This document shows, piece by piece, positions 15,924-64,000 of a DNA stretch of 64,000 nt; within the stretch, counting starts at the first letter, position 1, and each line of letters starts with the position of its first letter. Location: the NCBI RefSeq assembly GCF_041647995.1, contig NZ_JARRIB010000002.1, positions 186,001-250,000 of the forward strand. Direction: 5' to 3'. The notes under the pieces are model-generated. The model had not been told where the DNA came from and did no database searches. It was given only the letters and a program-made list of their open reading frames with translations. The position numbers and the translations under genes were made by a program. The stretch is from Pyrococcus kukulkanii (GTDB lineage Archaea; Methanobacteriota_B; Thermococci; Thermococcales; Thermococcaceae).

Positions 15924-17519
15924 ATGAAACATTTAAAGCTTATCGTGGTAATATTGATATCACTATCATTTGGATGTCTGATAAAGCCCCCTGCTGAGGT
16001 TAAGTTTGAGCTTGATACGAACGTTATAGGCCCAGGGGACATTTTCCATTTAATAGTAACGATTAATAATACAGGGAAGGTTGGCATTCTGGCAGCGAAC
16101 CTTCAGATAGAGGGTGATGATTTCATACTAGTGGGATCCCCCAAACTTACTTCCCCCCTTAAAGTCGGAGAGTCAACTAAGTTGATATGGACTATTAAGG
16201 GACCGGCAATCCCGGGAACTTACACGCTCAAAGTGTACTTAGATATAGTGGATGAACTTCACAGAACTTGGAGGGGAAACATATACGAGACGAGGATAAA
16301 AGTCGTGAATAAGACGGATAAGAATTCTAAGGTCAATATAAGGATCCTAGCTCCAAATCAGACGTACGGGGGTAAGATAATAACAATTCCAATTGCCGTC
16401 ACCAATAACCTTCAGTCCGACATTAGGGTGATTAACTTGGAGGTGAACGCAGGGGGTCTGAAGATAATTGAGGCTCCAAAAGGATCAGTCACAGTGCCCC
16501 CAAATTCCACATACACATTTTTACTTAAGGTTAAGACTCCCCCAGAATTTGAAAGGGCGAGAATATTTGTTATCCTTGAGTACGGTTCTCAAATGGGGAT
16601 AGGAAAGAAGGTTTCAGAAAAAGAGATTACCGTTCTATGGCAACCCTGGATGTTATCTGAGGAAGAAATAAGGGAGGCGTACGGGAATATATCGGAATGG
16701 GTATTTATGGACTCGATCGTGGACAGGTACTGGGAGAACGTTTATGGATCAACATCAATAATTAACAGGCAAGCACTCAGGGAAAGTATAATGCCCATAA
16801 TAAATGGTTCAAAGTCCGATATAGAGGCAGCAAAAGCAATCTTTAATTATATTTTCACGCACTTCACGTTCGAAGACAAGGGGGTTTCGATCCTTAACCC
16901 CCAGGTACTCCAAAATTCGACAACTCTATCGCCCATAGAGGCGAACCTCCTAATGGTGGCCTACCTAAGATCAATCAACGTGCCGGCAAGGGTAATTAGC
17001 GTGTACAATGGCGTAGATTGTACGGAATTCCCGTTTGTTGAAGCCTATATCTCCGGAAAATGGTACGTTATAGACTTCAAGCACATGTTCTTTGGGACGA
17101 GAGAGGAATTCATTTCAAGCAGGTGGTTCCCGACAATTTATCAAGAAATAGGGATATTCAACAACAAACTTGTTGCGATAGAACCTGGAGGAGATCCCCA
17201 TAACCACGAACAACTGACACAGCTATACCTAGGCATAACCAAGAAAAGCCTGCTAAATGCCCTCTACAACAGGTTAGACAAGAGGACTTATATGAAGGTA
17301 AAGGAGCTATTGGCACTCCTCGACTCTGAAAATGAAAGAATATTCGCACTATTCTTATTTACCTCTGGGAGCCCAGATGAGGTTGAGAATCTATTAAACA
17401 CCGTTAGCGTAGAAAAACTCAGTGGAACGATTAAGGCATTTTATGAGTTCTACTATGACATAAAATGGGAGGAAGACTTTAGAGTTTACTGGGAGAAACT
17501 CCTTATGACGTACAGGTGA
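15924..17519 (+). CDS. Secreted lipoprotein with CARDB-like repeats and a degenerate transglutaminase-like domain
   Basis: A 531-residue exported protein. A hydrophobic signal ends in LSFGC, a lipobox with Cys18 as the likely anchor. Residues about 25-260 form two Ig-like CARDB/NPCBM-type repeats (VTINNTGKVGILAANLQI; VTNNLQSDIRVINLEV). Residues about 300-400 resemble a transglutaminase/protease fold (LLMVAYLRSINVPARVISVYNG, AYISGKWYVIDF). The Cys and His that the active fold needs at these places appear to be missing (ANLLM and FVEAY), so I infer a binding rather than catalytic role at the cell surface. Confidence 0.65.
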   Translation: MKHLKLIVVILISLSFGCLIKPPAEVKFELDTNVIGPGDIFHLIVTINNTGKVGILAANLQIEGDDFILVGSPKLTSPLKVGESTKLIWTIKGPAIPGTYTLKVYLDIVDELHRTWRGNIYETRIKVVNKTDKNSKVNIRILAPNQTYGGKIITIPIAVTNNLQSDIRVINLEVNAGGLKIIEAPKGSVTVPPNSTYTFLLKVKTPPEFERARIFVILEYGSQMGIGKKVSEKEITVLWQPWMLSEEEIREAYGNISEWVFMDSIVDRYWENVYGSTSIINRQALRESIMPIINGSKSDIEAAKAIFNYIFTHFTFEDKGVSILNPQVLQNSTTLSPIEANLLMVAYLRSINVPARVISVYNGVDCTEFPFVEAYISGKWYVIDFKHMFFGTREEFISSRWFPTIYQEIGIFNNKLVAIEPGGDPHNHEQLTQLYLGITKKSLLNALYNRLDKRTYMKVKELLALLDSENERIFALFLFTSGSPDEVENLLNTVSVEKLSGTIKAFYEFYYDIKWEEDFRVYWEKLLMTYR

Positions 17520-53164: not shown

Positions 53165-53638
53165 CTACCATTTATTTTTTCTGTACCCCAAGAAAAAGCC
53201 TCTAAATGTCATGCCCATGAAATCTTCCCCTAGGAAACCATCAAAGAACTTCCTTGTCTCTTCTGGGTTAAGCCACTCTATGTGATCAGGAATGCCTTCG
53301 TCGAAGTAATAAGTTATTGCATCGTCCTTTTTGCTTGCTATATCCAACGTGTATATTTTTTTGTTAAACCTCTTCGCCTTCTCAACCTCCCTGCATACTA
53401 GGGAGGAGAACTTTCCGTACACGGCAACGGCGACGACGTAATCAACTTCCCTGATTTTGTCACTTACATCTCTTATACCATAGTCCGAGGGAAGAATGAC
53501 GTTTGTTGAACCAAGTTTCTCTTTGATTATCTCCAAAATAATTTTCTCAGTTTTCGTGTGATACAAAATAGTAGGCTCGCTTAGATATACTGGAGGCCCG
53601 TAAGCTTTTTTCTTTTTCCTAAATATTTTAAACACCAT
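53165..53638 (-). CDS. Conserved hypothetical protein
   Basis: A 157-residue protein I do not recognise. It begins VFKIFRKKKKAYGPPVYLSE after the initiator and holds a nucleotide-fold-like middle part (VDYVVAVAVYGKFSS, VEKAKRFNKKIYTLDIASKK). ATG 53638 has GAGGTGTTCCGA upstream. The frame is open to 53722, but that DNA is a C/D-box sRNA (53644-53712) so I reject the longer form. It ends against sudA on the other strand. Confidence 0.65.
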   Translation of the reverse strand: MVFKIFRKKKKAYGPPVYLSEPTILYHTKTEKIILEIIKEKLGSTNVILPSDYGIRDVSDKIREVDYVVAVAVYGKFSSLVCREVEKAKRFNKKIYTLDIASKKDDAITYYFDEGIPDHIEWLNPEETRKFFDGFLGEDFMGMTFRGFFLGYRKNKW

Positions 53639-53643
53639 TCGGA

Positions 53644-53712
53644 ACACCTCAGGTGGGGACTTTACGTCATCATTGACCCCCGAATCAGCAGGGATGACAC
53701 TCATCATAGGTG
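53644..53712 (-). ncRNA. C/D-box sRNA in the leader of the downstream gene
   Basis: On the minus strand the full set is present: C box ATGATGA (53707-53701), 12-nt guide GTGTCATCCCTG, D' box CTGA (53688-53685), spacer TTCGGGGGTCA, C' box ATGATGA (53673-53667), 14-nt guide CGTAAAGTCCCCAC, D box CTGA (53652-53649). The D box runs into the GAGGTG ribosome site of the gene at 53638. A TATA (CCTATTTTATTT, about 53727-53738) lies 25 bp before the RNA 5' end. The sRNA and mRNA thus seem to share a promoter. Confidence 0.87.
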
Positions 53713-53716
53713 CTCC

Positions 53717-53738
53717 TTTCAAATTTGAAATAAAATAG
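53717..53738 (-). promoter_or_regulatory. TATA box with 14-bp palindrome for the sRNA/mRNA unit
   Basis: TTTCAAATTTGAAA (53717-53730) is a perfect 14-bp palindrome between a TATA-like element (53727-53738, minus strand) and the predicted RNA start near 53711. It could be an operator or simply A/T-rich promoter DNA; no factor is known to me for it. Confidence 0.4.
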
Positions 53739-53850: not shown

Positions 53851-54144
53851 CTACCCTTTGATTATTTTTGCTAGTTTTTTTGTGAGGGTGTCGAGGAATT
53901 CTATGAATTCTTTTTCGTTGTACATTACTAGGTGTTTTTTCTCTTCGATTAGTTCTTGTAGTTCTAGTAGTTCTGGGGTTGCTTTTCCCTCTTCTTTCAT
54001 TATTTCGATTAGCCTTGCAGCTGCATCGATTAATCTTAGGGGTCCGTACAGGGGAGGCTCATCAACACAACCTCTAGCGCTCGTTATTAAGAAGGCTAAA
54101 AGCTTGAAGTGGCTATCATTTAATATGTTGTCCGTACTTTTCAA
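53851..54144 (-). CDS. DUF6092 family protein
   Basis: A 97-residue helical protein. HFKLLAFLITSARGCVDEPP, then LYGPLRLIDAAARLIEIM, is the mark of a small conserved family of unknown function. The only in-frame start is a TTG at 54144, which lies 29 nt inside the nitroreductase gene, so the two are translated from one message. No ATG or GTG occurs before the conserved part. 53723-53850 upstream of the next gene holds the promoter described separately. Confidence 0.65.
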   Translation of the reverse strand: MKSTDNILNDSHFKLLAFLITSARGCVDEPPLYGPLRLIDAAARLIEIMKEEGKATPELLELQELIEEKKHLVMYNEKEFIEFLDTLTKKLAKIIKG

Positions 54145-54640
54145 CGTGAACCACCTCCTCTAGGGGTCTCCTCTTTGGTGGTTTAGGCCAGAATTCAGGG
54201 TACCCAAAACTTATCATTAAGACGGGCTCTATATCTTCGGGAATTTCCAGGAGTTCTTTTAATGCCACCTTGTTAAACGAGACTATTGGACAAGAGCCAA
54301 TTCCCAGGGAGTACGCCATTAACATCATGTTTTGAGCTGCCATTGAAATATCCATTAATGCGATCCGTTCTCCCTCCCTACCTCCCCTTTCGGCCCGTTT
54401 TTTGTTAATGCAGAGAATTATTAAGGCTGCTGGATTCCCAAACAATCCTGGAGAGACTAGTTTTATCTTCCCTATCATCTCCTTATTTGTCACTAAAATG
54501 AACTCCCAAGCCTGAATATTACTACCACTCGGGGCCCAAATTCCAGCCTCAAGAATCTTAAGCAAATCTTCCTTGGGAATCCCCTTATCCTTAAACCTCC
54601 TCACAGCCCTACGACCCTTAATGATATCTAGAAGCTCCAA
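54116..54640 (-). CDS. Nitroreductase-family flavoprotein
   Basis: A 174-residue FMN-dependent oxidoreductase. KGRRAVRRFKDKGIPKEDLLKIL and APSGSNIQAWEFILV form the FMN site; LGIGSCPIVSFNK and SFGYPEFWPKPPKRRPLEEVVH the C-terminal part. Start is TTG 54640, with GGAGGGAG upstream; it lies 3 nt after the racemase stop. Substrates of such proteins range from nitro compounds to flavins and quinones. It follows the racemase/peptidase operon and may belong to it. Confidence 0.88.
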   Translation of the reverse strand: MELLDIIKGRRAVRRFKDKGIPKEDLLKILEAGIWAPSGSNIQAWEFILVTNKEMIGKIKLVSPGLFGNPAALIILCINKKRAERGGREGERIALMDISMAAQNMMLMAYSLGIGSCPIVSFNKVALKELLEIPEDIEPVLMISFGYPEFWPKPPKRRPLEEVVHVEKYGQHIK

Positions 54641-54643
54641 TGA

Positions 54644-55351
54644 CTACTCCCTCCTTTTTTCGTGTGGGGGATGGAATGATACCTTACTATGAGAAAGACC
54701 TAGCTTAACAAGGTCTTCTGCAATTTTTAGGGCTACTAGCCCAGGTTCAATTACCGGAACACCTAGCTGGTCTTGAAGCCATTTCCCTAGCCCAATTAAA
54801 CTTCCACAACTTAGTACTATTACTTCAGCGCCATCATTCTCAATTGCGTCCTTTGCTTCTTTTAGCAAAGCCTGTTTTATGTCCTCTATTCTATTGGCTA
54901 TATCAAGAACCGTAAAATCGACTGTTCTTATAGATGCTAATTTGTTTTCTAGTCCGTACATCCTAACAGCATCGAGGGTTTTTCCTCTAGAGTTCTTTGA
55001 ACCAACTCCAACTATTGAGAATTTTCTACCCAACATTGATGCAATATGGAGGGCACTTTCTCTTAGCCCTACTACTGGGATTGTTAACTTTTCCCGAGCT
55101 GCGAATAAAGCAGGATCGCTAAAGCAATAAATTATAACTGCATCGTACCCTTCTTCTTCGGCTTTTTCTGCCTCTTTTAAAGTTTCGAGCTCTGACCATG
55201 CAATATCATAGTACTGCTCTATAGATTCCGGGCCTCTAGTTAAGTTAACAACTGTTATCTCCGTATCTGGATCCTTTACTTTGTTGTATGCATCTTCTAT
55301 CCCTTTATTCCAAAGTTCGGTTGAAACAGGAACAATGACCTTTATCCTCAT
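54644..55351 (-). CDS. Asp/Glu/hydantoin racemase family protein
   Basis: A 235-residue protein of the cofactor-independent racemase family (HyuE/AspR type). The two active-site cysteines are expected in VIIYCFSDPALFAAREK and VIVLSCGSLIGLG; both Cys are present. It likely inverts an alpha-carbon in an amino acid or hydantoin. GAGGAGG lies before the ATG. A second, different member is encoded at 63053, so the cluster has two such enzymes. Confidence 0.82.
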   Translation of the reverse strand: MRIKVIVPVSTELWNKGIEDAYNKVKDPDTEITVVNLTRGPESIEQYYDIAWSELETLKEAEKAEEEGYDAVIIYCFSDPALFAAREKLTIPVVGLRESALHIASMLGRKFSIVGVGSKNSRGKTLDAVRMYGLENKLASIRTVDFTVLDIANRIEDIKQALLKEAKDAIENDGAEVIVLSCGSLIGLGKWLQDQLGVPVIEPGLVALKIAEDLVKLGLSHSKVSFHPPHEKRRE

Positions 55352-55354
55352 ATC

Positions 55355-56608
55355 TTAATCCTCCTCTAACAGGCTTACCACAGCAAAAACTTTGGAGTCT
55401 TCAACCATGTTTTCTATCTTGGCATATTCATTGGGCTGATGAGCAGTTTCATCACAAGTGCACCATACGGCGGCAGGAATTCCGAGTTTTCTGAAGAAAG
55501 CTGCAAAAGTTCCACCACCAATGCCACCTACATACGGAGTTATGTTACGAAGTAGCCGGAGGGCTTTTTTGAGGAGCACTACAATTTCTGAGTCTTCGGG
55601 AGTGGGACTTGGGGCTTCAAATTTCCTTAAGACTGAGATTTCAATTTTTGCTCCATAACTTCTTTCAAAAACTGAGGCTATATTCTGTATGGTCTCTAGG
55701 ATATCATCCAAGTTGTGTTCTGGAAGAACTCTGCAATCGAAGTACAAAATATCTTCCCCGGGGATTATGTTTATTGCATCTACGTTCTTCTCTTTCTTCG
55801 TAGGCTCAAACGTACTTATTGGGGGATCAAAAAGCTCATTTCTTTCTGAATATTTTGCATAGAGCATTTCGTGAAGGGTTGTTGCGAATTTCATCCCTAC
55901 TAAATGGGCATTAATACCCTTTTCGGGACTCATGGCATGAGTTTGCTTCCCAACTGTTTTAACTTGAAAGACTAATCTACTTTTTTCTGCTATTTCGATG
56001 AATGTTCCTTCTGGGTTTCCTGCGTCGGGGACTAGGACTAGGTCGTCTTTTCTGAATAGTTCTGGGTGGTTTTCCATCAACCATTTTATTCCATAGTTAC
56101 TCCCTGTTTCTTCATCACTTACGAAGGCTAGGATTATTGTTCTCTTAGGCCGTATCCCGAGGTTCATTAGGGCTTTAACAGCGTACAGAGAGGCAACGAG
56201 ACTCTGGCCGTTGTCCTCACTACCCCTACCGTACACTTTTCCATCCTTTACAATAGGTTCGAAGGGTTTTGTAACAGTCCACTTGCTCAAATCTCCGGGA
56301 GGCACAACATCTAAGTGTGTAAGAATCCACAGTCTTGGGCTTTTCTCACCCTGCTCTCCATAATAGTACGCTAGAATATTGGGTCGTACACCATTCTTAG
56401 CCCTTGGATCAGGGGCATTGTACTGTTCAATCTTGTCAAATGGCCAATCCTTAATAATCTCAAGCAATTTTTGGGCCTTATCGTACTCCCCCTCACCACC
56501 ACTATCCGGACTAATTGCAGGAATCCTAATAAGCTCCACTAAGGTCTGAACCATATCATCCCTAAGAGAATCAATTTCATTACAAATTGCCCCTATCTCC
56601 TTTTTCAT
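55355..56608 (-). CDS. M20-family metallopeptidase (dipeptidase/deacylase type)
   Basis: A 417-residue M20 enzyme, annotated elsewhere as dipeptidase, acetyl-ornithine or succinyl-diaminopimelate deacylase. First metal ligands LWILTHLDVVPPGDLSKW (H-x-D), then GRGSEDNGQSLVASLYA, FVSDEETGSNYGIKW (Glu-Glu pair), DLVLVPDAG, and the last His in CDETAHQPNEYAKI. The frame is open to 56668, but ATG 56608 has GGAGGAAGGGAG before it. 3 nt separate it from the downstream racemase gene. Confidence 0.87.
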   Translation of the reverse strand: MKKEIGAICNEIDSLRDDMVQTLVELIRIPAISPDSGGEGEYDKAQKLLEIIKDWPFDKIEQYNAPDPRAKNGVRPNILAYYYGEQGEKSPRLWILTHLDVVPPGDLSKWTVTKPFEPIVKDGKVYGRGSEDNGQSLVASLYAVKALMNLGIRPKRTIILAFVSDEETGSNYGIKWLMENHPELFRKDDLVLVPDAGNPEGTFIEIAEKSRLVFQVKTVGKQTHAMSPEKGINAHLVGMKFATTLHEMLYAKYSERNELFDPPISTFEPTKKEKNVDAINIIPGEDILYFDCRVLPEHNLDDILETIQNIASVFERSYGAKIEISVLRKFEAPSPTPEDSEIVVLLKKALRLLRNITPYVGGIGGGTFAAFFRKLGIPAAVWCTCDETAHQPNEYAKIENMVEDSKVFAVVSLLEED

Positions 56609-56664
56609 ACTCCCTTCCTCCTTAAGGTTAATTAAAAATGTAAAATAGACAAAATTAAACAAAT

Positions 56665-57714
56665 TCACTTTTTAAGCTCTTTAGCGAGTTTTGCAAGTTC
56701 GGGTGGGTAAATAACATTTCCTTCGTCCATTATCTGCACATCATCTATCCACACTGACGAATCTAGACAAATCCCATCGCTGTGGGATGCTGCTGGGACT
56801 CCTCCCGGAATATCGGGAACTAATCTTGGCCCTATGTTTCCTATTCCCCACTCAGTGGCTCCCCAAACTCTTTCATCTTCGACAACATTTCCGGTGAGTT
56901 TGGCTCCAGGATTGAAGCCATAAGATATATGGGCTAATTGGTACATGTTAGGATCATTAAATCTTTCTAACCAGTTAGCGAATTCTCTAGCTTCTCTTCC
57001 TCCTTCTATATTAACTATCCTTCCTTTTTCAACCTCTAGCTTAATGGGTTCTCTCAGAAGACCTATTGGGGGTGTTACTGAACCATCAAAGACTATAACT
57101 CCATTGATAGTTTCTAATTTGGGAGTCCAGCTTATCTGACCTGGCAACATCTCGTAAGTTCCTTTTGGAACGTACCCTGAGTGGACTATCATTGGCCTAT
57201 CTGGATGATTTTCAAACTCAACGTCAGTTCCAGCTGGAGTTGTGATTCTGACGTGTTTTCCATTCTTTGTTATCTCGGCTATTTTTTCGAGGAATTCGGA
57301 AAGTTTTTTCATATCAACTTTTCCAATTGTTCTAACCATCATGTCGGGGTTCATGCCCACTAGACAAATGTACCTCAACTCTTTGTTTTCTCTGATAACG
57401 GTGTCAAAAACTGTTGAGTATAATAGCCACTGATAGTTGAACTCTATCCAAACATCAACATTCGTCAATGCTCCTATTAGAGCCTTCTGAGGTAACATGG
57501 GGTCAGCAGCTTTTCCTACACCATCAGGAGTTGCGACCCAAATAACAAGGGGCTTTGCTCCAGCCTCAAAAACTGCCCTTGCAGTTGCATTGACGACTTC
57601 TTCGCTTGAAAGGGTATCGGCGGTTATACCTACAATCTCCCCTGGTTGTACATCCAAAATATCTCTTACGAGCCTTCTTGCAGCAAGACCAAGCTCAAAT
57701 TCGTACGTTTTCAT
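56665..57714 (-). CDS. M29/NicX-like aminopeptidase-family protein (A)
   Basis: A 349-residue protein of the thermophilic aminopeptidase (M29) and dihydroxypyridine dioxygenase NicX superfamily. Metal-site candidates are HISYGFNPGAKLTGNVVEDERVWGATEWGIGN and PAASHSDGICLDSSVWIDD. The N-terminal half (VQPGEIVGITADTLSSEEV) is the nucleotide-like first domain. A paralogue lies at 59399. GGAGGTGG precedes ATG 57714. Confidence 0.75.
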   Translation of the reverse strand: MKTYEFELGLAARRLVRDILDVQPGEIVGITADTLSSEEVVNATARAVFEAGAKPLVIWVATPDGVGKAADPMLPQKALIGALTNVDVWIEFNYQWLLYSTVFDTVIRENKELRYICLVGMNPDMMVRTIGKVDMKKLSEFLEKIAEITKNGKHVRITTPAGTDVEFENHPDRPMIVHSGYVPKGTYEMLPGQISWTPKLETINGVIVFDGSVTPPIGLLREPIKLEVEKGRIVNIEGGREAREFANWLERFNDPNMYQLAHISYGFNPGAKLTGNVVEDERVWGATEWGIGNIGPRLVPDIPGGVPAASHSDGICLDSSVWIDDVQIMDEGNVIYPPELAKLAKELKK

Positions 57715-57798
57715 TTTTACCACCTCCTTGGGGTTATATTTCTGAGCAAAGCAAAATAAAAGATAAGTGGATAAAATAGAGCTAAAAACTAAAAGACA

Positions 57799-59388
57799 TC
57801 ACTTCTTGCCAAGCTTGAGTGTTGATGTGAAGAAGCTTACTAGTGTTGATCCTGCTATTAGTCCTGCACCGAGGACGTACAAGGCGTTTTGCCCTTCCTC
57901 TTTGTACTTGTGTGTCACGGCAAGTCTTATTGCAAGGGCTATGAGAACTGTTATTCCTGCAATTGGATATTTTATGAGTAGACCTGTAGCGAAAAGAATA
58001 CCCAACTGTCTGTCTGGTCCTCCGATTGCCTGGACTATTGCTCCTGGGATTGCCCATAGTAGTAGGTATTTTGCTATTTGTGGATTAGCTCCTGCCTTGA
58101 TTGTGGCTACGTATACCCTGTCTACAGGAGGAACGAGATCTTGGAGGAGGTACGTCTTAGCGAATATTGCTACCATTGCAGCGGCAACGATTAGTCCTGT
58201 AATCTCTGCAAAGTACTGTTGCTTTCTTCCTTCTAGTTCAAATTCTTTGTCTTTTCCTTCTCCTCTTATTATCCATCCGGTCTTAAGGTCATAACCCATA
58301 TCAGCGAAGGCGGGACCTGTAGCTGCTGTAAATCCTACGAGAAGTCCTAGTGCAGGAGCAGGGAATCCCATTAGAATACCTAGAACTAGGAAGATCAGGG
58401 CAGTTGCAAATGCTGGGAACCATCCTGCGTGCATTGCTGAAAGTCCTACAATTAGCTCCGAGACTAAAGCAGCTATCGCTGCAAATATGAACCACCAAAC
58501 GAACATTCCTGCTGACATTCCACTGTACAGACCACCTAGGAGGGCGAGGAGTAGTGCAACTGCAATGTACAATCCAAATCCTCTAGTTAGAGCAAACCTA
58601 ATGTCTTTTTCTGTTCTTGTGAATTCATAATTGCTTTCGGCTTCCTCTTTCATTGACTTCTTTTTCTTGGTTATAATCAAGATAATCTGAATTAATGCTA
58701 CTATTCCCGCTCCTATCATGATACCGTGGGGAACATAGTACTGGTTAATGTCTACTCCAATGAGCTTCGGAGAATATCCTCTAACTATAAGGCCTATTCC
58801 AAACATTGCCAATGCCCACATATTTCCTATCCATGCAACACCTGCAATATCCGCTGGAATTCCAAGGTATCTAACTATACCTCCCGCAATCATTCCGTAT
58901 AGCAAGAGCATTGCTCTCTTACCTTTCTTAGCTGCTGCTATGAGCGTTTCAGCTGTTGCTATTCCTGGGGGCCATGGATTCTTTGCTGGGAATATTCTTG
59001 TGTCAAATAACCAGTAAATCATTGTCATATCTATAATAGCTGCTAAGGTTGCACCAATCCACATTGGCACTAGGAGATCTTCCCTCCCGAGCAGCCAAGT
59101 CACACCAACAGGCAGGAATATCGCATTTGCAGCTCCAAATGTTGCTCCAGAAATTGCCGTCTGAACCAAGTTCTGTCTGTTTAGGTCCAAAAATGCTTTT
59201 AATGCTCTCACAGGAATTCTAGCAAGAAGTATCGCAATCAATGCACCAATGATTGATGTATTTGTTGAAATTCCCAAACGTGTAATGAGTTCTAGACCAA
59301 TAATGGCACCGAGCACCGCCATTATGATATTCAAAACTAATACTCCCGGTTCAAATGCAGAGGGGTGTTTTCTTTTTGGTTCTTCCAT
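57799..59388 (-). CDS. OPT-family oligopeptide transporter
   Basis: A 529-residue polytopic membrane protein with about 14 hydrophobic helices. The OPT/YSL family marks are LPVGVTWLLG, NPWPPGIATAETLIAA, and GPAFADMGYDLKTGWIIRG. OPT carriers bring peptides, or metal-chelate compounds, into the cell with protons. ATG 59388 has GAGGTGG upstream; the GTG at 59397 is in frame. It sits between two M29-like genes, which fits import of the substrate that the cluster breaks down. Confidence 0.88.
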   Translation of the reverse strand: MEEPKRKHPSAFEPGVLVLNIIMAVLGAIIGLELITRLGISTNTSIIGALIAILLARIPVRALKAFLDLNRQNLVQTAISGATFGAANAIFLPVGVTWLLGREDLLVPMWIGATLAAIIDMTMIYWLFDTRIFPAKNPWPPGIATAETLIAAAKKGKRAMLLLYGMIAGGIVRYLGIPADIAGVAWIGNMWALAMFGIGLIVRGYSPKLIGVDINQYYVPHGIMIGAGIVALIQIILIITKKKKSMKEEAESNYEFTRTEKDIRFALTRGFGLYIAVALLLALLGGLYSGMSAGMFVWWFIFAAIAALVSELIVGLSAMHAGWFPAFATALIFLVLGILMGFPAPALGLLVGFTAATGPAFADMGYDLKTGWIIRGEGKDKEFELEGRKQQYFAEITGLIVAAAMVAIFAKTYLLQDLVPPVDRVYVATIKAGANPQIAKYLLLWAIPGAIVQAIGGPDRQLGILFATGLLIKYPIAGITVLIALAIRLAVTHKYKEEGQNALYVLGAGLIAGSTLVSFFTSTLKLGKK

Positions 59389-59398
59389 ATTTTCCACC

Positions 59399-60370
59399 TC
59401 AAATTACCAAATTTCCATCTCTAAACAAATATTTTCCATCAATTAACACAGTTGGCTTTTTAATAATCCCATCCAGATGGATGGGGGCTTTTACTTTCCC
59501 ACCAAAGTCGTAGTTGCTTCCTAGGGCAATATGGACCGTTCCAAAAACTTTTTCATCTTCTAAAATGTTTCCACTAATTCTTGCCTTTGGATTAGTTCCT
59601 ATTCCAAACTCTGCTATATTTCTTGCTTCCTTCCCATACCTAGACAAAATCTCCTCTAACTTCTTTGCTTCATCACCTCCTTCAATTTTTTCAACAAAAC
59701 CATCCTGAACGATAAGCTTAATGGGATTTTTTAGAACTCCAATTCCTGCCATAGAGCCGTCAATGACAACAGTCCCATTTGCCGTTCCTTCGACAGGTGC
59801 TATGTACGCTTCAGCTCCAGGAAGGTTACCACACTCACCAGGGTTCCTATAAACTCCTGTGCTTCTCATGGCTTTTCTGCCCTCTATTGAGAATTCCAAG
59901 TCCGTGCCAAGTGAAGTTGTAATTTGGACTGTGCTTCCATTATCCAGAATATCGGCTATTTTGTTTGTAAGGGCTAATATTTCCTCGTAGTCAGCGTTCA
60001 TTGTCCTAATAAATATTTCTTCCGTGATACCTGGGAGCGTAGCTACTCTTGCTCCTCTTTCACATGCTTCTTTTTTCGCTAACGTGTGGGTTATAGATTT
60101 TGAAGTTGGAGCTATTACGACATCTGCTACTTTCATAGCTTCAGCAACTGGTTTGGGAGGTTCTTCTCCATGCATTTTCCGTGGAATAATCTCTATGTAA
60201 ACGGCTTCAGTGTTTAATTCCTTGGCTTTCATCCAGAGGCTGTACCCTATTTTGCGCTCTGGTTCATCTGCGATTATAAGGACTGACTCTCCCTCTTTAA
60301 CACCTAGGCACTGCTTTAATGCAATCTCACATGCTTTGTACAGCTCCGGATTAATTTCAAGAAACTCCAT
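59399..60370 (-). CDS. M29/NicX-like aminopeptidase-family protein (B)
   Basis: A 323-residue homologue of the protein at 56665, same fold and the same metal-site pattern: NIAEFGIGTNPKARISGNILEDEKVFGTVHIALGSN, and PIHLDGIIKKPTVLIDG at the end. It is shorter at the C-terminal side. Two diverged paralogues flanking one transporter suggest two steps or two substrates. GGAGGGATAG precedes the ATG. It is 10 nt upstream of the transporter start. Confidence 0.75.
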   Translation of the reverse strand: MEFLEINPELYKACEIALKQCLGVKEGESVLIIADEPERKIGYSLWMKAKELNTEAVYIEIIPRKMHGEEPPKPVAEAMKVADVVIAPTSKSITHTLAKKEACERGARVATLPGITEEIFIRTMNADYEEILALTNKIADILDNGSTVQITTSLGTDLEFSIEGRKAMRSTGVYRNPGECGNLPGAEAYIAPVEGTANGTVVIDGSMAGIGVLKNPIKLIVQDGFVEKIEGGDEAKKLEEILSRYGKEARNIAEFGIGTNPKARISGNILEDEKVFGTVHIALGSNYDFGGKVKAPIHLDGIIKKPTVLIDGKYLFRDGNLVI

Positions 60371-60373
60371 ACT

Positions 60374-61033
60374 CTATCCCTCCAAAAGTTCTCCAATAAC
60401 TCTTGCCATCAGAGTTCTAGGCAAAACAACAGGCTTTTTTGTGATTTCTTTCACGATTTCCTTAAAAGATAGCTTGTATCCGATGCAATCCATCACAATG
60501 AGATCACATTCTTTCAGCTCTTGAGCAGCTCTTATGAACTCATCTTCCTTCCCAACGTACGGAGAAACACTTCGAACTTTGATACTTTTAGCAACTCCTT
60601 CCCACTTTCTTTTTGTTATTTCTACCTGGTCTGGATCTGGAACTATAACTCCAAGATTTGAGACGTTTAGAGCTTCTACTGTTTTTAAAAGAAGTAAAGA
60701 GGGTTCGACAAGTAATTTCCTAGAGGTTAATTCTGGAAACTCTCCAGTACAAAGCACTCCAATGACATCAACTCTTTCTTCTAGCTTTTTAATGCACTCT
60801 TGGAGTCTCTTAATGATTTTTTCCCTGCTGAGTCTAACTTGAGTACCATCCCTGAGTCTGGTTACTAAAACATAATCACCTTCTTTTGGAGCTAATTTTT
60901 TGATTTCTTCAAGCGTTAGGTCATCTAAGGCTCCACACTCGATAATCTCAACTCCTGCTCCCAAGTACGGCTTTATTTCGGGAACTACGTCTACTCTAGG
61001 AGATTGACCTATCGTTACAAAGCCTACTCTCAT
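60374..61033 (-). CDS. AroM family protein
   Basis: A 219-residue AroM-like protein. Although named after a gene near aroL in E. coli, its reaction is unknown; the fold is related to Asp/Glu racemases. Marks are VGFVTIGQSPRVDVVPE, IECGALDDLTLEEIK, LVTRLRDGTQVRLSREKI and CTGEFPEL. Two Cys places, one in VLCTGEFP and one in VMDCIGYKLS, could be a racemase-like pair. ATG 61033 follows GGGAGGAAG. Confidence 0.85.
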   Translation of the reverse strand: MRVGFVTIGQSPRVDVVPEIKPYLGAGVEIIECGALDDLTLEEIKKLAPKEGDYVLVTRLRDGTQVRLSREKIIKRLQECIKKLEERVDVIGVLCTGEFPELTSRKLLVEPSLLLLKTVEALNVSNLGVIVPDPDQVEITKRKWEGVAKSIKVRSVSPYVGKEDEFIRAAQELKECDLIVMDCIGYKLSFKEIVKEITKKPVVLPRTLMARVIGELLEG

Positions 61034-61034
61034 T

Positions 61035-61967
61035 TTACTTCCTCCCAAGAGTTTGGAGGTGTTTCATGGAGCCATAGAGCTCAACTAGGCGTTTGAATTC
61101 CTCTTCGTCATAGAATTTTACTTTCCCTCTACCAAAGCCCTTAGCGACTTCAATGCAGAATCTAGCGGCCTGCTCAATATCTACTACGTGGCTAGCTCCT
61201 GTTGCACATCCTGGAACTGGAACCTCGGCAGTTATGGCGACTCCAACTACGGGTGCATCTGTCGCGGTTGCTGGCTGTAGGATGCTGTTTATGTGATAAA
61301 CTCCGTTTCCATATGGTGTTATGTCTTGCATTGTAATTGGGACTACAGCAGGCATTCTTCCAGTTACGTACTGCATTATGTCAAGTAAATCGTCACTTAC
61401 TCTTAATATCCATCCTTCTTTTACAGTTGGAGTTATAGCAAAGCCCCTGACATTTATGATTCTATTTCCCTTCGTTGTATCTACGGAAAGGATTGCATCC
61501 ATCCTTGGATCAACTTCATACTTGTTCATGGTAGCCATATCTACTGGAGAACCCATAAAGGGAACGGGGTCGTGAGGCTGTGTTGGAGCATTCGGACAAA
61601 TGTGAGTGGCAATTATTACATCACCGTCTAGAATGTCTCCATTTCTTCTCATATCAGCTAGTTTTAAGGCAACTGCTATTGCAGTTATTGCCCCGTCAGC
61701 GTCAGAAACCAGGCCTATCATCTCTGGCCTGGCACCTATTCCTCCTAGTCTTCCAATGATACCAAGTGTTGGAGCATCTCCACCGGAAAGCTTTCCATTC
61801 TTTCCGGGCACTATAATCTTGATGAAATCAGTAGATCCTTTTTCGCCTTCTATCCTTTTGACTTCAACGTTTTCTAGTCCCCTTTCTCTAAGAACCTCTG
61901 CAACTTTTTCTCCTGTAACATATGCGCTGTCTAACAATTCATAGGCTTCTATAACTTGTTTCATCAT
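61035..61967 (-). CDS. DUF1177 family protein
   Basis: A 310-residue protein of a family of unknown function. Marks: TLGIIGRLGGIGARPEMIGLVSDADGAITAIAVALK, DVIIATHICPNAPTQPHDPVPFMGSPVD and PVPGCATGASHVVDIEQAARFCIEVA. Conserved His, Asp and Cys suggest a metal-dependent enzyme with a peptidase-like arrangement. GGAGGG precedes the ATG pair. It overlaps nothing; AroM begins one base after its stop. Confidence 0.85.
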   Translation of the reverse strand: MMKQVIEAYELLDSAYVTGEKVAEVLRERGLENVEVKRIEGEKGSTDFIKIIVPGKNGKLSGGDAPTLGIIGRLGGIGARPEMIGLVSDADGAITAIAVALKLADMRRNGDILDGDVIIATHICPNAPTQPHDPVPFMGSPVDMATMNKYEVDPRMDAILSVDTTKGNRIINVRGFAITPTVKEGWILRVSDDLLDIMQYVTGRMPAVVPITMQDITPYGNGVYHINSILQPATATDAPVVGVAITAEVPVPGCATGASHVVDIEQAARFCIEVAKGFGRGKVKFYDEEEFKRLVELYGSMKHLQTLGRK

Positions 61968-61979
61968 TTTTAACCCTCC

Positions 61980-63056
61980 TTACAAGATCTTCTTTCCAAT
62001 TACCTCCTCAACTTGTCTCAAAACTTCAGGATCCTTGACTCCAGCACCTAAGATAATGTGCTCTTTGGGCACTACGAGCAAGAGAACATTATCACCTCGT
62101 TTTACCTCTGCAGACGTTAGAGGAAGTCCTGTTTGCAAATCTATCATGACTATTAGATCTGGAAAAGTTCCATATCTCTTTCCTTTGGAATCCTCTATCG
62201 TCATAAATTCATTCCAAAATGTTACTTCGTACCTTGTGCCATTGCGACCTTTTACAATTACTTTTCCTATATCAAAACCTCCCTTTGTTTCTAGTGTAAC
62301 CTGCTCTACTTCTCCTTTGCTTATGACATCTCCGCCACCGAGGTACCCTAGTATCTTTTCTACCATTTGATCTACGTCTGACCTGTTCTCTTGGATTATC
62401 TTACCAACTTCTGTGGCCTGAGAAATAGCTCCTACTGCGGCATTTTCCTTTACGTACTCTGGTGTTACAGGATTTCTTGTTACTGCTACTAATCCTCCGG
62501 CCTGAACTGCTGCTTCTCTAATCATTCTTGCCGCTTTTTCTAAAGGGCCTTTTACAATGACTTCCACATACCTCCCTTTTTCTTTGTTTCCTCCGACTGC
62601 AGTCTGGATTGAAACATAGTCAGGAACTTTATGTAGTCCAATGGCACCCATGACACCAGTGGGATGAGCCCTGCCATCTGCAGGAGCATCTACAATTGGA
62701 ATTTCTAGAACGGCAGACTGAATCCACCCGTTTATTGTTGAGTACCCTCCGTTTTCGGATGATATTAGACCTCCCAGAGGAACCTTGGCAACATCCATAA
62801 AGAGCTCTGTAGATTTTATCGCGTGGACAGGTAGAAGATACCCTTCTTTAGCAGCAGGGGCTCCTACCATGGAGGCTGTGGCTATATACTTGTCTTTGGG
62901 TACATGATCAACATCTACTATTACAACTTCACCAAGTTCAATAGCGAGTTTTGCATGCTTTAATCCAAGTCTTAAATCTCCCCCTCCTCCCCCTCCAAAG
63001 AAAGCGCCACCAAGAACAGCAGCCTCGGCGAGTTTTTCATCAACCTTTAACTTCAT
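61980..63056 (-). CDS. DUF917 family protein (hydantoinase-related)
   Basis: A 358-residue DUF917 protein; such domains are found beside or fused to hydantoinase/oxoprolinase-like proteins. A glycine run opens it (GGAFFGGGGGGDLRLG), followed by VSMVGAP-like and SSENGGYSTINGWIQSA segments and VDAPADGRAHPTGVMGAIGL. No reaction is established to my knowledge. It overlaps the racemase gene by 4 nt, so it is tightly coupled to it. Confidence 0.87.
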   Translation of the reverse strand: MKLKVDEKLAEAAVLGGAFFGGGGGGDLRLGLKHAKLAIELGEVVIVDVDHVPKDKYIATASMVGAPAAKEGYLLPVHAIKSTELFMDVAKVPLGGLISSENGGYSTINGWIQSAVLEIPIVDAPADGRAHPTGVMGAIGLHKVPDYVSIQTAVGGNKEKGRYVEVIVKGPLEKAARMIREAAVQAGGLVAVTRNPVTPEYVKENAAVGAISQATEVGKIIQENRSDVDQMVEKILGYLGGGDVISKGEVEQVTLETKGGFDIGKVIVKGRNGTRYEVTFWNEFMTIEDSKGKRYGTFPDLIVMIDLQTGLPLTSAEVKRGDNVLLLVVPKEHIILGAGVKDPEVLRQVEEVIGKKIL

Positions 63057-63727
63057 GTACTGTCACCCCACACATCTAGTCCCCTAAGAGCATGAAGGGT
63101 AACAGCTCCTGCGGCAATTACGGGATCGATAACTGGGATACCAACTTTCTTTTCAAGAACAGGAGCAATCATGATTGTTGACATTCCAGTACATCCTAGA
63201 ACTATTACGTCAACACCTTCTTCTTTCAATCTCTTCGCAGCCTCTATTGCCTCTTTTCGCCCCCACTCAGTCATTAAATCAAGGGTGTTTGAGACCCCTT
63301 TTGGGTGATCTTCGGCAATTAGATTGTCACCAAGAACTTCCTTTATTACCTTTGGAGTTTCTTCAGTCAAGTTAAGGACACCAACTTTCCTACCGTACGC
63401 TAGGGCTAATGCAGAGGCAGAGGATCCAGCCCCAATAACGGGAACTGAGACCAATTTCCTAGCTTCTTCAACGGCTGGATCGGCTGCACAGCTTATTATT
63501 ATTGCATCAACTCCTTCCTCTTCAAACTCCTTTGCTAATCGTAAAATTTTTGGTTTTGCTTCGTTTTCAGTTTTTTCGTCATATATCCCCTTTGGTTGCT
63601 CTTCAATGCATCTACTAACTATCTTTAACTCTGGAAATGCTTTCTCAATTAGCTTTCCATGAATATTTAGGAGTTCCTCGTCTTGAATTGTTAACACTCT
63701 TATTAGTCCAACGGTGTACTTTTCCAT
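63053..63727 (-). CDS. Asp/Glu/hydantoin racemase family protein, first gene of the operon
   Basis: A 224-residue racemase-family protein with both expected cysteines: AIIISCAADPAVEEA and VIVLGCTGMSTIMIAP. Other marks are PVIGAGSSASALALAYG and DPVIAAGAVTLHALRG. Its coupling to DUF917 makes a hydantoin- or lactam-related role possible, but the family also holds amino-acid racemases. The promoter is in 63734-63769. Confidence 0.85.
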   Translation of the reverse strand: MEKYTVGLIRVLTIQDEELLNIHGKLIEKAFPELKIVSRCIEEQPKGIYDEKTENEAKPKILRLAKEFEEEGVDAIIISCAADPAVEEARKLVSVPVIGAGSSASALALAYGRKVGVLNLTEETPKVIKEVLGDNLIAEDHPKGVSNTLDLMTEWGRKEAIEAAKRLKEEGVDVIVLGCTGMSTIMIAPVLEKKVGIPVIDPVIAAGAVTLHALRGLDVWGDST

Positions 63728-63733
63728 TCAATA

Positions 63734-63769
63734 CACCTACAAAAGGTGCAATAAGTGATGGTATATACC
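63734..63769 (-). promoter_or_regulatory. Promoter of the racemase/DUF917/OPT operon
   Basis: GGTATATACC (63760-63769) is a TATA element about 35 bp before the ATG at 63727. CACCT-n5-AGGTG (63734-63748) is a 15-bp inverted repeat covering the likely RNA start and holding the AGGTG ribosome site. It could be an operator for the divergent Lrp/AsnC-type regulator. Confidence 0.5.
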
Positions 63770-63893
63770 CATTATTGAACCAAAATTTAGAAACATAGGC
63801 GCTACATTGAATAATAATTTGAGAGATATTATAGTCCAATGAACTAAAAACTTATTAAGTTATTTTTGTAACAAACAAAATTGAGGGGGTAAA

Positions 63894-64000
63894 ATGAAAA
63901 CAAGATTGTCAAAAAAAGATTGGCAAATTATAAAGCTCTTGAAAGAAAACGCTCGAATGAGTGATGCTGAGATTGGGAGGAGAATTGGCCTCTCAAAATC
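63894..64000 (+). CDS. Lrp/AsnC-family transcription regulator, 3' end cut off by the window
   Basis: Only the first 35 residues are in the window: MKTRLSKKDWQIIKLLKENA, then RMSDAEIGRRIGLSK. This is the N-terminal helix-turn-helix of Lrp/AsnC regulators (L-x-x-LKENAR-x-s-xAEIG-R-iGLSks). GAGGGGGTAAA lies before the ATG, and AACTTATTAAGTT (about 63849-63861) may be the TATA region. Being divergent from the catabolic operon, it is its likely regulator, with an amino acid as effector. Confidence 0.8.
   Translation, partial: MKTRLSKKDWQIIKLLKENARMSDAEIGRRIGLSK

Follow-up and report, generated by a model that had tools for sequence, protein, structure and literature searches.

A predicted eleven-gene operon of Pyrococcus kukulkanii with a possible role in the catabolism of cyclic dipeptides

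The window analysed here is a stretch of 64,000 nucleotides from Pyrococcus kukulkanii (contig NZ_JARRIB010000002.1, positions 186,001 to 250,000). At its right-hand end 11 minus-strand genes occupy 63727 to 53851, and an Lrp/AsnC gene lies divergently upstream. Reading away from lrp, the features are as follows.

63894–64000, plus strand: Lrp/AsnC-family regulator (PF13404 and PF01037), divergent, ATG at 63894; 161 amino acids when whole, extending beyond the window
63728–63893, no strand: divergent promoter region with two TGAACYAAAA repeats, at 63776 and 63840; candidate operator
63053–63727, minus strand: rac1, Asp/Glu/hydantoin racemase family, Cys80/Cys179 pair (PF01177, 8.5e-33; PDB 2eq5, 383 bits)
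61980–63056, minus strand: DUF917, S-Me-THD-like, candidate cyclic-amide hydrolase (PF20906 and PF06032; PDB 2o3i)
61035–61967, minus strand: DUF1177, predicted MH-clan (M20/M28/M17-like) fold, candidate ring-opening hydrolase (PF06675, 5e-146)
60374–61048, minus strand: AroM, racemase fold, Cys100/Cys188 pair (PF07302, 1e-81; NF007788 above cut-off)
59399–60370, minus strand: M29a, M29-type aminopeptidase with an E/E/H/H/D ligand set (PF02073 above cut-off)
57799–59397, minus strand: OPT-family oligopeptide transporter (PF03169, 1.4e-25)
56665–57723, minus strand: M29b, NicX-related metalloenzyme with an H/H/D site (PDB 7cn3, E 1e-15)
55355–56668, minus strand: M20 metallohydrolase of ArgE/DapE type (NF010589 above cut-off; PF01546)
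54644–55351, minus strand: rac2, hydantoin/allantoin-racemase-like, Cys76/Cys182 pair (PF01177, 1e-45; PDB 3qvj, 1.6e-30)
54116–54640, minus strand: CDOA, predicted catalytic flavin subunit of cyclodipeptide oxidase (best PDB match AlbA, 8uc3, 8e-28; PF00881)
53851–54144, minus strand: CDOB (DUF6092), predicted small subunit of cyclodipeptide oxidase (AlbB, 8uc3, 2e-8; PF19585, 2.9e-30)

Neighbouring genes overlap or are separated by gaps of 0–75 nt, an arrangement that identifies the 11 as one predicted operon. A single operon beside a divergent Lrp/AsnC gene had been proposed in a sequence-only reading of this DNA, and both points hold; every gene named there lies at the position and on the strand given, and the families are borne out by Pfam and NCBIfam (PF01177, PF06032+PF20906, PF06675, PF07302, PF02073, PF03169, PF01546, PF00881). 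That list of real genes was nonetheless one short, having overlooked CDOB, a 97-aa open reading frame that starts at a TTG preceded by the Shine-Dalgarno-like sequence GAGGTGG. The likely true starts of M20 and AroM are at about 56608 and 61033, respectively. The complete Lrp/AsnC gene occupies 16894–17379 of locus L002, and its divergent position is also conserved in relatives. The TGAACYAAAA direct repeats (63776–63849), which lie between lrp and rac1 at a spacing of 64 bp and are partly kept in relatives, may form an operator; the motif has three matches in the whole window versus 0.6 expected. Beyond CDOB, at 53165–53722, lies a gene for a 185-aa protein without a Pfam match, a 50% identical homologue of which adjoins the operon's Lrp gene in relative G114 (L022, 8039–8569). 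In relative G094 (L016, 7783–10914) AroM, DUF1177 and a mere fragment of DUF917 stand beside an M20-like gene, an apparent case of operon decay.

The adjacent genes for CDOA and CDOB share a 29-nt overlap and, judged by their sequences, encode a cyclodipeptide oxidase (CDO) pair. CDOA had been labelled a nitroreductase, a label now replaced on the strength of its AlbA match; a nitroreductase as unrelated neighbour is rejected, the protein being the partner of CDOB. Equivalents of AlbA R24, R28, S54 and R175 and of AlbB E33, P34, Y37 and R41, to which PMC11055893 ascribes FMN-binding or catalytic roles, are all retained, both in the window and throughout the full-length Thermococcaceae pairs. 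That paper also places the covalent-FMN Cys115 of AlbA in CDPS-linked CDOs and describes non-CDPS CDOs as being without it. The Cys115 position is Asp in CDOA of all Thermococcaceae pairs compared, and no CDPS (PF16715) was found in P. kukulkanii or the other Thermococcaceae genomes searched, the one match lying in another family. Characterised CDOs act on 2,5-diketopiperazines (DKPs), and those known to us require oxygen; no obvious redox partner for the CDO is encoded.

Characterised CDO clusters are biosynthetic (PMC11055893), and the operon could by analogy make or export a dehydro-DKP or a comparable metabolite. This is highly improbable. Catabolism is likelier than biosynthesis because no CDPS occurs in the Thermococcaceae genomes searched, the ground on which a biosynthetic CDO cluster is rejected. 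Furthermore, the transporters are of import type, hydrolases are several, and the operon genes include no methyl- or prenyltransferase. The logic of uptake plus catabolism, already put forward in the sequence-only reading, is supported, and with no CDPS in these genomes it is the likeliest direction.

Three operon proteins share the racemase fold. To our knowledge AroM, the gene for which has been known since 1986, has no assigned function. Two catalytic cysteines are present in 24/24 rac1, 4/4 rac2 and 52/52 AroM sequences, and in all 19 racemases of CDO clusters. rac2 is nearest to racemases with ring substrates and also matches OpaE (9qbx, 2.4e-15), which matches rac1 too. The remaining PF01177 matches in the P. 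kukulkanii genome whose surroundings were read are ordinary-looking racemases beside which the module genes are absent. NozR, a two-cysteine racemase homologue, isomerises a diketopiperazine (PMC10156859), and OpaE acts as an epimerase on a residue of a fused ring derived from a peptide (PMC7530659, PMC12661438).

M29a and M29b have the same nearest PDB relative by sequence, NicX (7cn3), and had been regarded as possible alternatives for similar substrates; they prove to belong to two metal-site classes which travel with different modules. Against the Pfam M29 family (PF02073) M29b scores 20.2, the cut-off being 27. The M29 ligands, which we take to be E250/E316/H345/H376/D378, correspond to E/E/H/H/D in 32 of 57 M29-like sequences and to Q/H/(E,N,V)/H/D in 25, with no mixed site. 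M29a falls in the first class and M29b, as Q/H/E/H/D, in the second, and with so clean a split two redundant M29 copies are rejected. In the dipeptide-ABC/CDO clusters of Thermococcaceae all nine M29 proteins belong to the M29b class, and in bacterial DUF1177 loci having an M29 nearly all are of the M29a class. Equivalents of NicX H265/H318/D320 are found in 25/25 members of the M29b class, with Gly for Ser302 in the same 25. M29b should not be named a NicX because this serine ligand is absent, and oxygenase activity is implausible if the host is, like the Thermococcales generally, a strict anaerobe.

DUF1177 has no match in the PDB by sequence. An AlphaFold2 model built with 56 diverse sequences reached a pLDDT of 90.6 (an earlier model from 11 sequences, 57), and a Foldseek search with it returned 171 PDB matches at E < 0.001, the best being 3b3t (E 1.4e-8, TM ~0.5). 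Aminopeptidases of the M28, M17 and M20 families and glutaminyl cyclases are among the matches, and the prediction of an M20/M28/M17 (MH-clan) peptidase fold carries high confidence. A profile alignment to M20/M42, weak and non-significant, has the M20 register of the fold match and keeps the Asp-x-Asp-Gly motif; in it, Asp89 and Asp163 look equivalent to MH-clan metal ligands and the catalytic Glu-Glu motif seems to be replaced by His-Ile-Cys. The model suggests that DUF1177 may be a hydrolase or cyclase-like enzyme.

The distribution of DUF1177 is patchy: of 115 genomes in the phylum, nine Thermococcaceae and three others have it. The same nine Thermococcaceae genomes, and no others of the family, have full-length AroM, adjoining DUF1177. 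CDOB is present in 13 of the 115; DUF917 accompanies it in 12 of the 13 and occurs in 7 of the 102 without it, although related genomes are not independent. When 84,980 species genomes were scanned, the best 80 of a larger number of DUF1177 loci (63–86% identical, from many phyla, and as a sample biased to close relatives) had within 6 kb AroM in 50 cases, DUF917 in 26, a racemase in 25, an M29 with EEHHD ligands in 25 and OPT in 19; these neighbours almost always shared the strand of DUF1177. The arrangement is not due to chance: AroM is almost always a single-copy gene in 28 other genomes, and 25 of these carry it within the DUF1177 locus, where ~0.2 would be expected at random. The families are thus co-located elsewhere; a lack of such co-location would, by the terms of the original proposal, have refuted it.

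Judged by gene content across genomes, the window operon is a merger of two separable modules. The first, DUF1177-AroM-M29a with a transporter, a racemase and often DUF917, is spread over many phyla of bacteria and archaea and mostly stands apart from CDO. Of the 28 genomes with this module, 27 have no CDOB, the exception being an Anaerolineae genome in which both sets lie within ~11 kb; CDO therefore says little directly about the DUF1177 module. The second, racemase-DUF917-racemase-M29b-CDOA-CDOB with a dipeptide ABC transporter, is conserved in Thermococcaceae. In eight intact neighbourhoods and one contig fragment the genes run in the order dipeptide ABC transporter, racemase, DUF917, racemase, M29b; CDOA-CDOB, and in most cases an Lrp gene too, adjoin this set or lie a few kilobases from it; DUF1177 and AroM are absent from all nine clusters. 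In relative L023 CDO directly follows M29b, and in L020 (11484–17230) the place of OPT and M29b before CDOA-CDOB is taken by an M20-type hydrolase and an ECF transporter. The ECF transporter includes a 187-aa putative S component without a Pfam match, and its substrate could be that of the pathway.

Transporters are exchanged among loci, between OPT, dipeptide ABC, ECF and PF02133 (cytosine/purine-type permease), the last in five bacterial DUF1177 loci. A compact version of the module, IclR-OPT-DUF1177-AroM-PepE-racemase, is found on annotated plasmids of Klebsiella and Sodalis, and Salinigranum has an ABC transporter, DUF917, DUF1177, AroM, an aminopeptidase, a racemase, an aspartoacylase-family gene and Lrp. 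The DUF1177 module is mobile: in Klebsiella pneumoniae it lies between insertion sequences on the conjugative plasmid pRHB26-C08_2 (L134, 5553–10960). The metagenome-assembled 'bacterium GBS-1' (L088, 7070–15219) has a full rac1-DUF917-DUF1177-AroM-M29a-OPT-M29b operon with an 85% identical DUF1177, reflecting either lateral transfer or a mislabelled genome. Six Bathyarchaeota loci (L033, L036, L038, L042, L048 and L066) place DUF1177 in another setting, in which the next genes encode a universal stress protein and an M24 peptidase and AroM is absent.

Together these observations suggest that the two modules take up and degrade cyclic dipeptides (DKPs) or cyclised peptides close to them, a reading given a probability of about one half. 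Cyclic peptides had been among several substrates guessed at before, and it is the overlooked CDOA/CDOB pair which provides the best clue to substrate class. The OPT transporter would import the ring compound, a task that elsewhere would fall to the dipeptide ABC, ECF or cytosine/purine-type systems. The two-cysteine proteins rac1, rac2 and AroM might epimerise alpha-carbons of the ring or its product, in the way NozR acts on a DKP, and DUF1177, the anchor of the widespread module, would open the ring. M29a (elsewhere apparently PepE) could then split the resulting dipeptide, with M20 taking off acyl groups. For substrates resisting direct hydrolysis, CDOA/CDOB may dehydrogenate the alpha-beta bond, with DUF917 and M29b hydrolysing the dehydro product, while Lrp would sense an amino-acid product. 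Spontaneous cyclisation of dipeptides is faster at high temperature. Linear dipeptides can cyclise in this way, as documented at pH 11 for proline dipeptides (PMC8273163).

The dipeptidases could also act on linear or damaged dipeptides with D- or iso-residues, such as D-Asp or isoaspartyl. The transporter would import these, M29a, M20, DUF1177 and PepE would hydrolyse them, and rac1, rac2 and AroM would racemise the freed amino acids. Such a pathway is unlikely. It would make good use of the peptide transporters, the exchangeable dipeptidases (PepE, M29, M20), the several two-cysteine racemases and the aspartoacylase-family gene of Salinigranum, but leaves unexplained CDOA/CDOB and DUF917, which travel with racemases and M29b in Thermococcaceae, as well as the kinship of rac2 with ring-substrate racemases.

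Several features count against the DKP reading, namely the oxygen need of known CDOs, the lack of an obvious redox partner, and the hydantoinase/oxoprolinase genes or PF02133 permeases of some bacterial DUF1177 loci. Alternative substrates would be hydantoins or thiohydantoins, the cyclised forms of carbamoyl and thiocarbamoyl amino acids, with DUF917 and DUF1177 opening the ring, M20 acting as carbamoylase and CDO dehydrogenating the hydantoin. PMC11055893 proposes and favours hydantoin/allantoin-like substrates for non-CDPS CDOs, and the resemblance of rac2 to hydantoin/allantoin racemase, the five PF02133 permeases and the hydantoinase genes near DUF1177 in Planococcus are in keeping with this. 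DUF917, previously described as lacking a reaction, has relatives named thiohydantoin desulfurases in NCBIfam, but itself scores 307.9 versus a cut-off of 440 and 266.6 versus 450 (NF058529 / NF058532). Hydantoinase B (HyuB, PF02538), the mark of the ATP-dependent hydantoinase pathway, was not found in the P. kukulkanii genome, and M29 and PepE partners suit dipeptides rather than carbamoyl amino acids, all of which makes hydantoins a distinctly unlikely substrate. The exchangeable dipeptidase (PepE, aminopeptidase) suggests a dipeptide as the intermediate and therefore favours cyclic dipeptides over hydantoins.

It is tempting to go further and see in DUF1177-AroM, with its exchangeable dipeptidase, racemase and transporter, a widespread and undescribed cyclic-dipeptide pathway, in which DUF1177 would represent a new peptidase-fold class of cyclic-dipeptide hydrolase and to which Thermococcaceae would add an oxygen-independent CDO. 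This fuller proposal is tentative and, taken as a whole, doubtful. The operon brings together a little-described gene set, which recurs in numerous bacteria and archaea, and a pair of flavin enzymes that has up to now been known chiefly from antibiotic biosynthesis. If the proposal is true, DUF1177, AroM and non-CDPS CDO gain one shared, testable pathway, which would show how microbes recycle cyclic dipeptides and would include a cyclodipeptide oxidase working without oxygen.

As a gene association, the link of CDO with racemases, DUF917, AroM and OPT is already known. In 2024 CDO clusters without CDPS were reported in PMC11055893 to be enriched in PF01177, PF06032, PF07302, OPT and peptidase genes, with Thermococcus among the hosts. 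That paper gives family enrichments, and its accessible text makes no mention of DUF1177, two modules, the M29 split or transporter exchange. A literature search covering few subscription journals found no description of the DUF1177 module, its cross-phylum composition, the DUF1177 fold, the two-module structure or the M29 split, and nothing on DUF1177 beyond an unrelated mention.

Comparison with characterised enzymes reveals differences as well as parallels. Whereas AlbA/AlbB of Streptomyces noursei has the covalent-FMN Cys115, the window pair has Asp, no CDPS and an anaerobic host lineage. M29b keeps the H265/H318/D320 pattern of NicX, a 2,5-dihydroxypyridine 5,6-dioxygenase, but has Gly for the Ser302 ligand, and Arg293 is not aligned. 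The operon's DUF917 belongs to the same family (PF06032) as the thiohydantoin and S-methyl thiohydantoin desulfurases, yet falls well under their equivalog cut-offs, and the copy in Thermococcaceae CDO clusters is farther still. The window operon resembles the non-CDPS CDO clusters of PMC11055893 in joining CDOA/CDOB with PF01177, PF06032, PF07302, OPT and peptidase genes. rac1, rac2 and AroM share the family and cysteine pair of NozR, whose context is biosynthetic, and the window pair shares with AlbA/AlbB a two-gene organisation, the catalytic S54/Y37 and the FMN-phosphate arginines.
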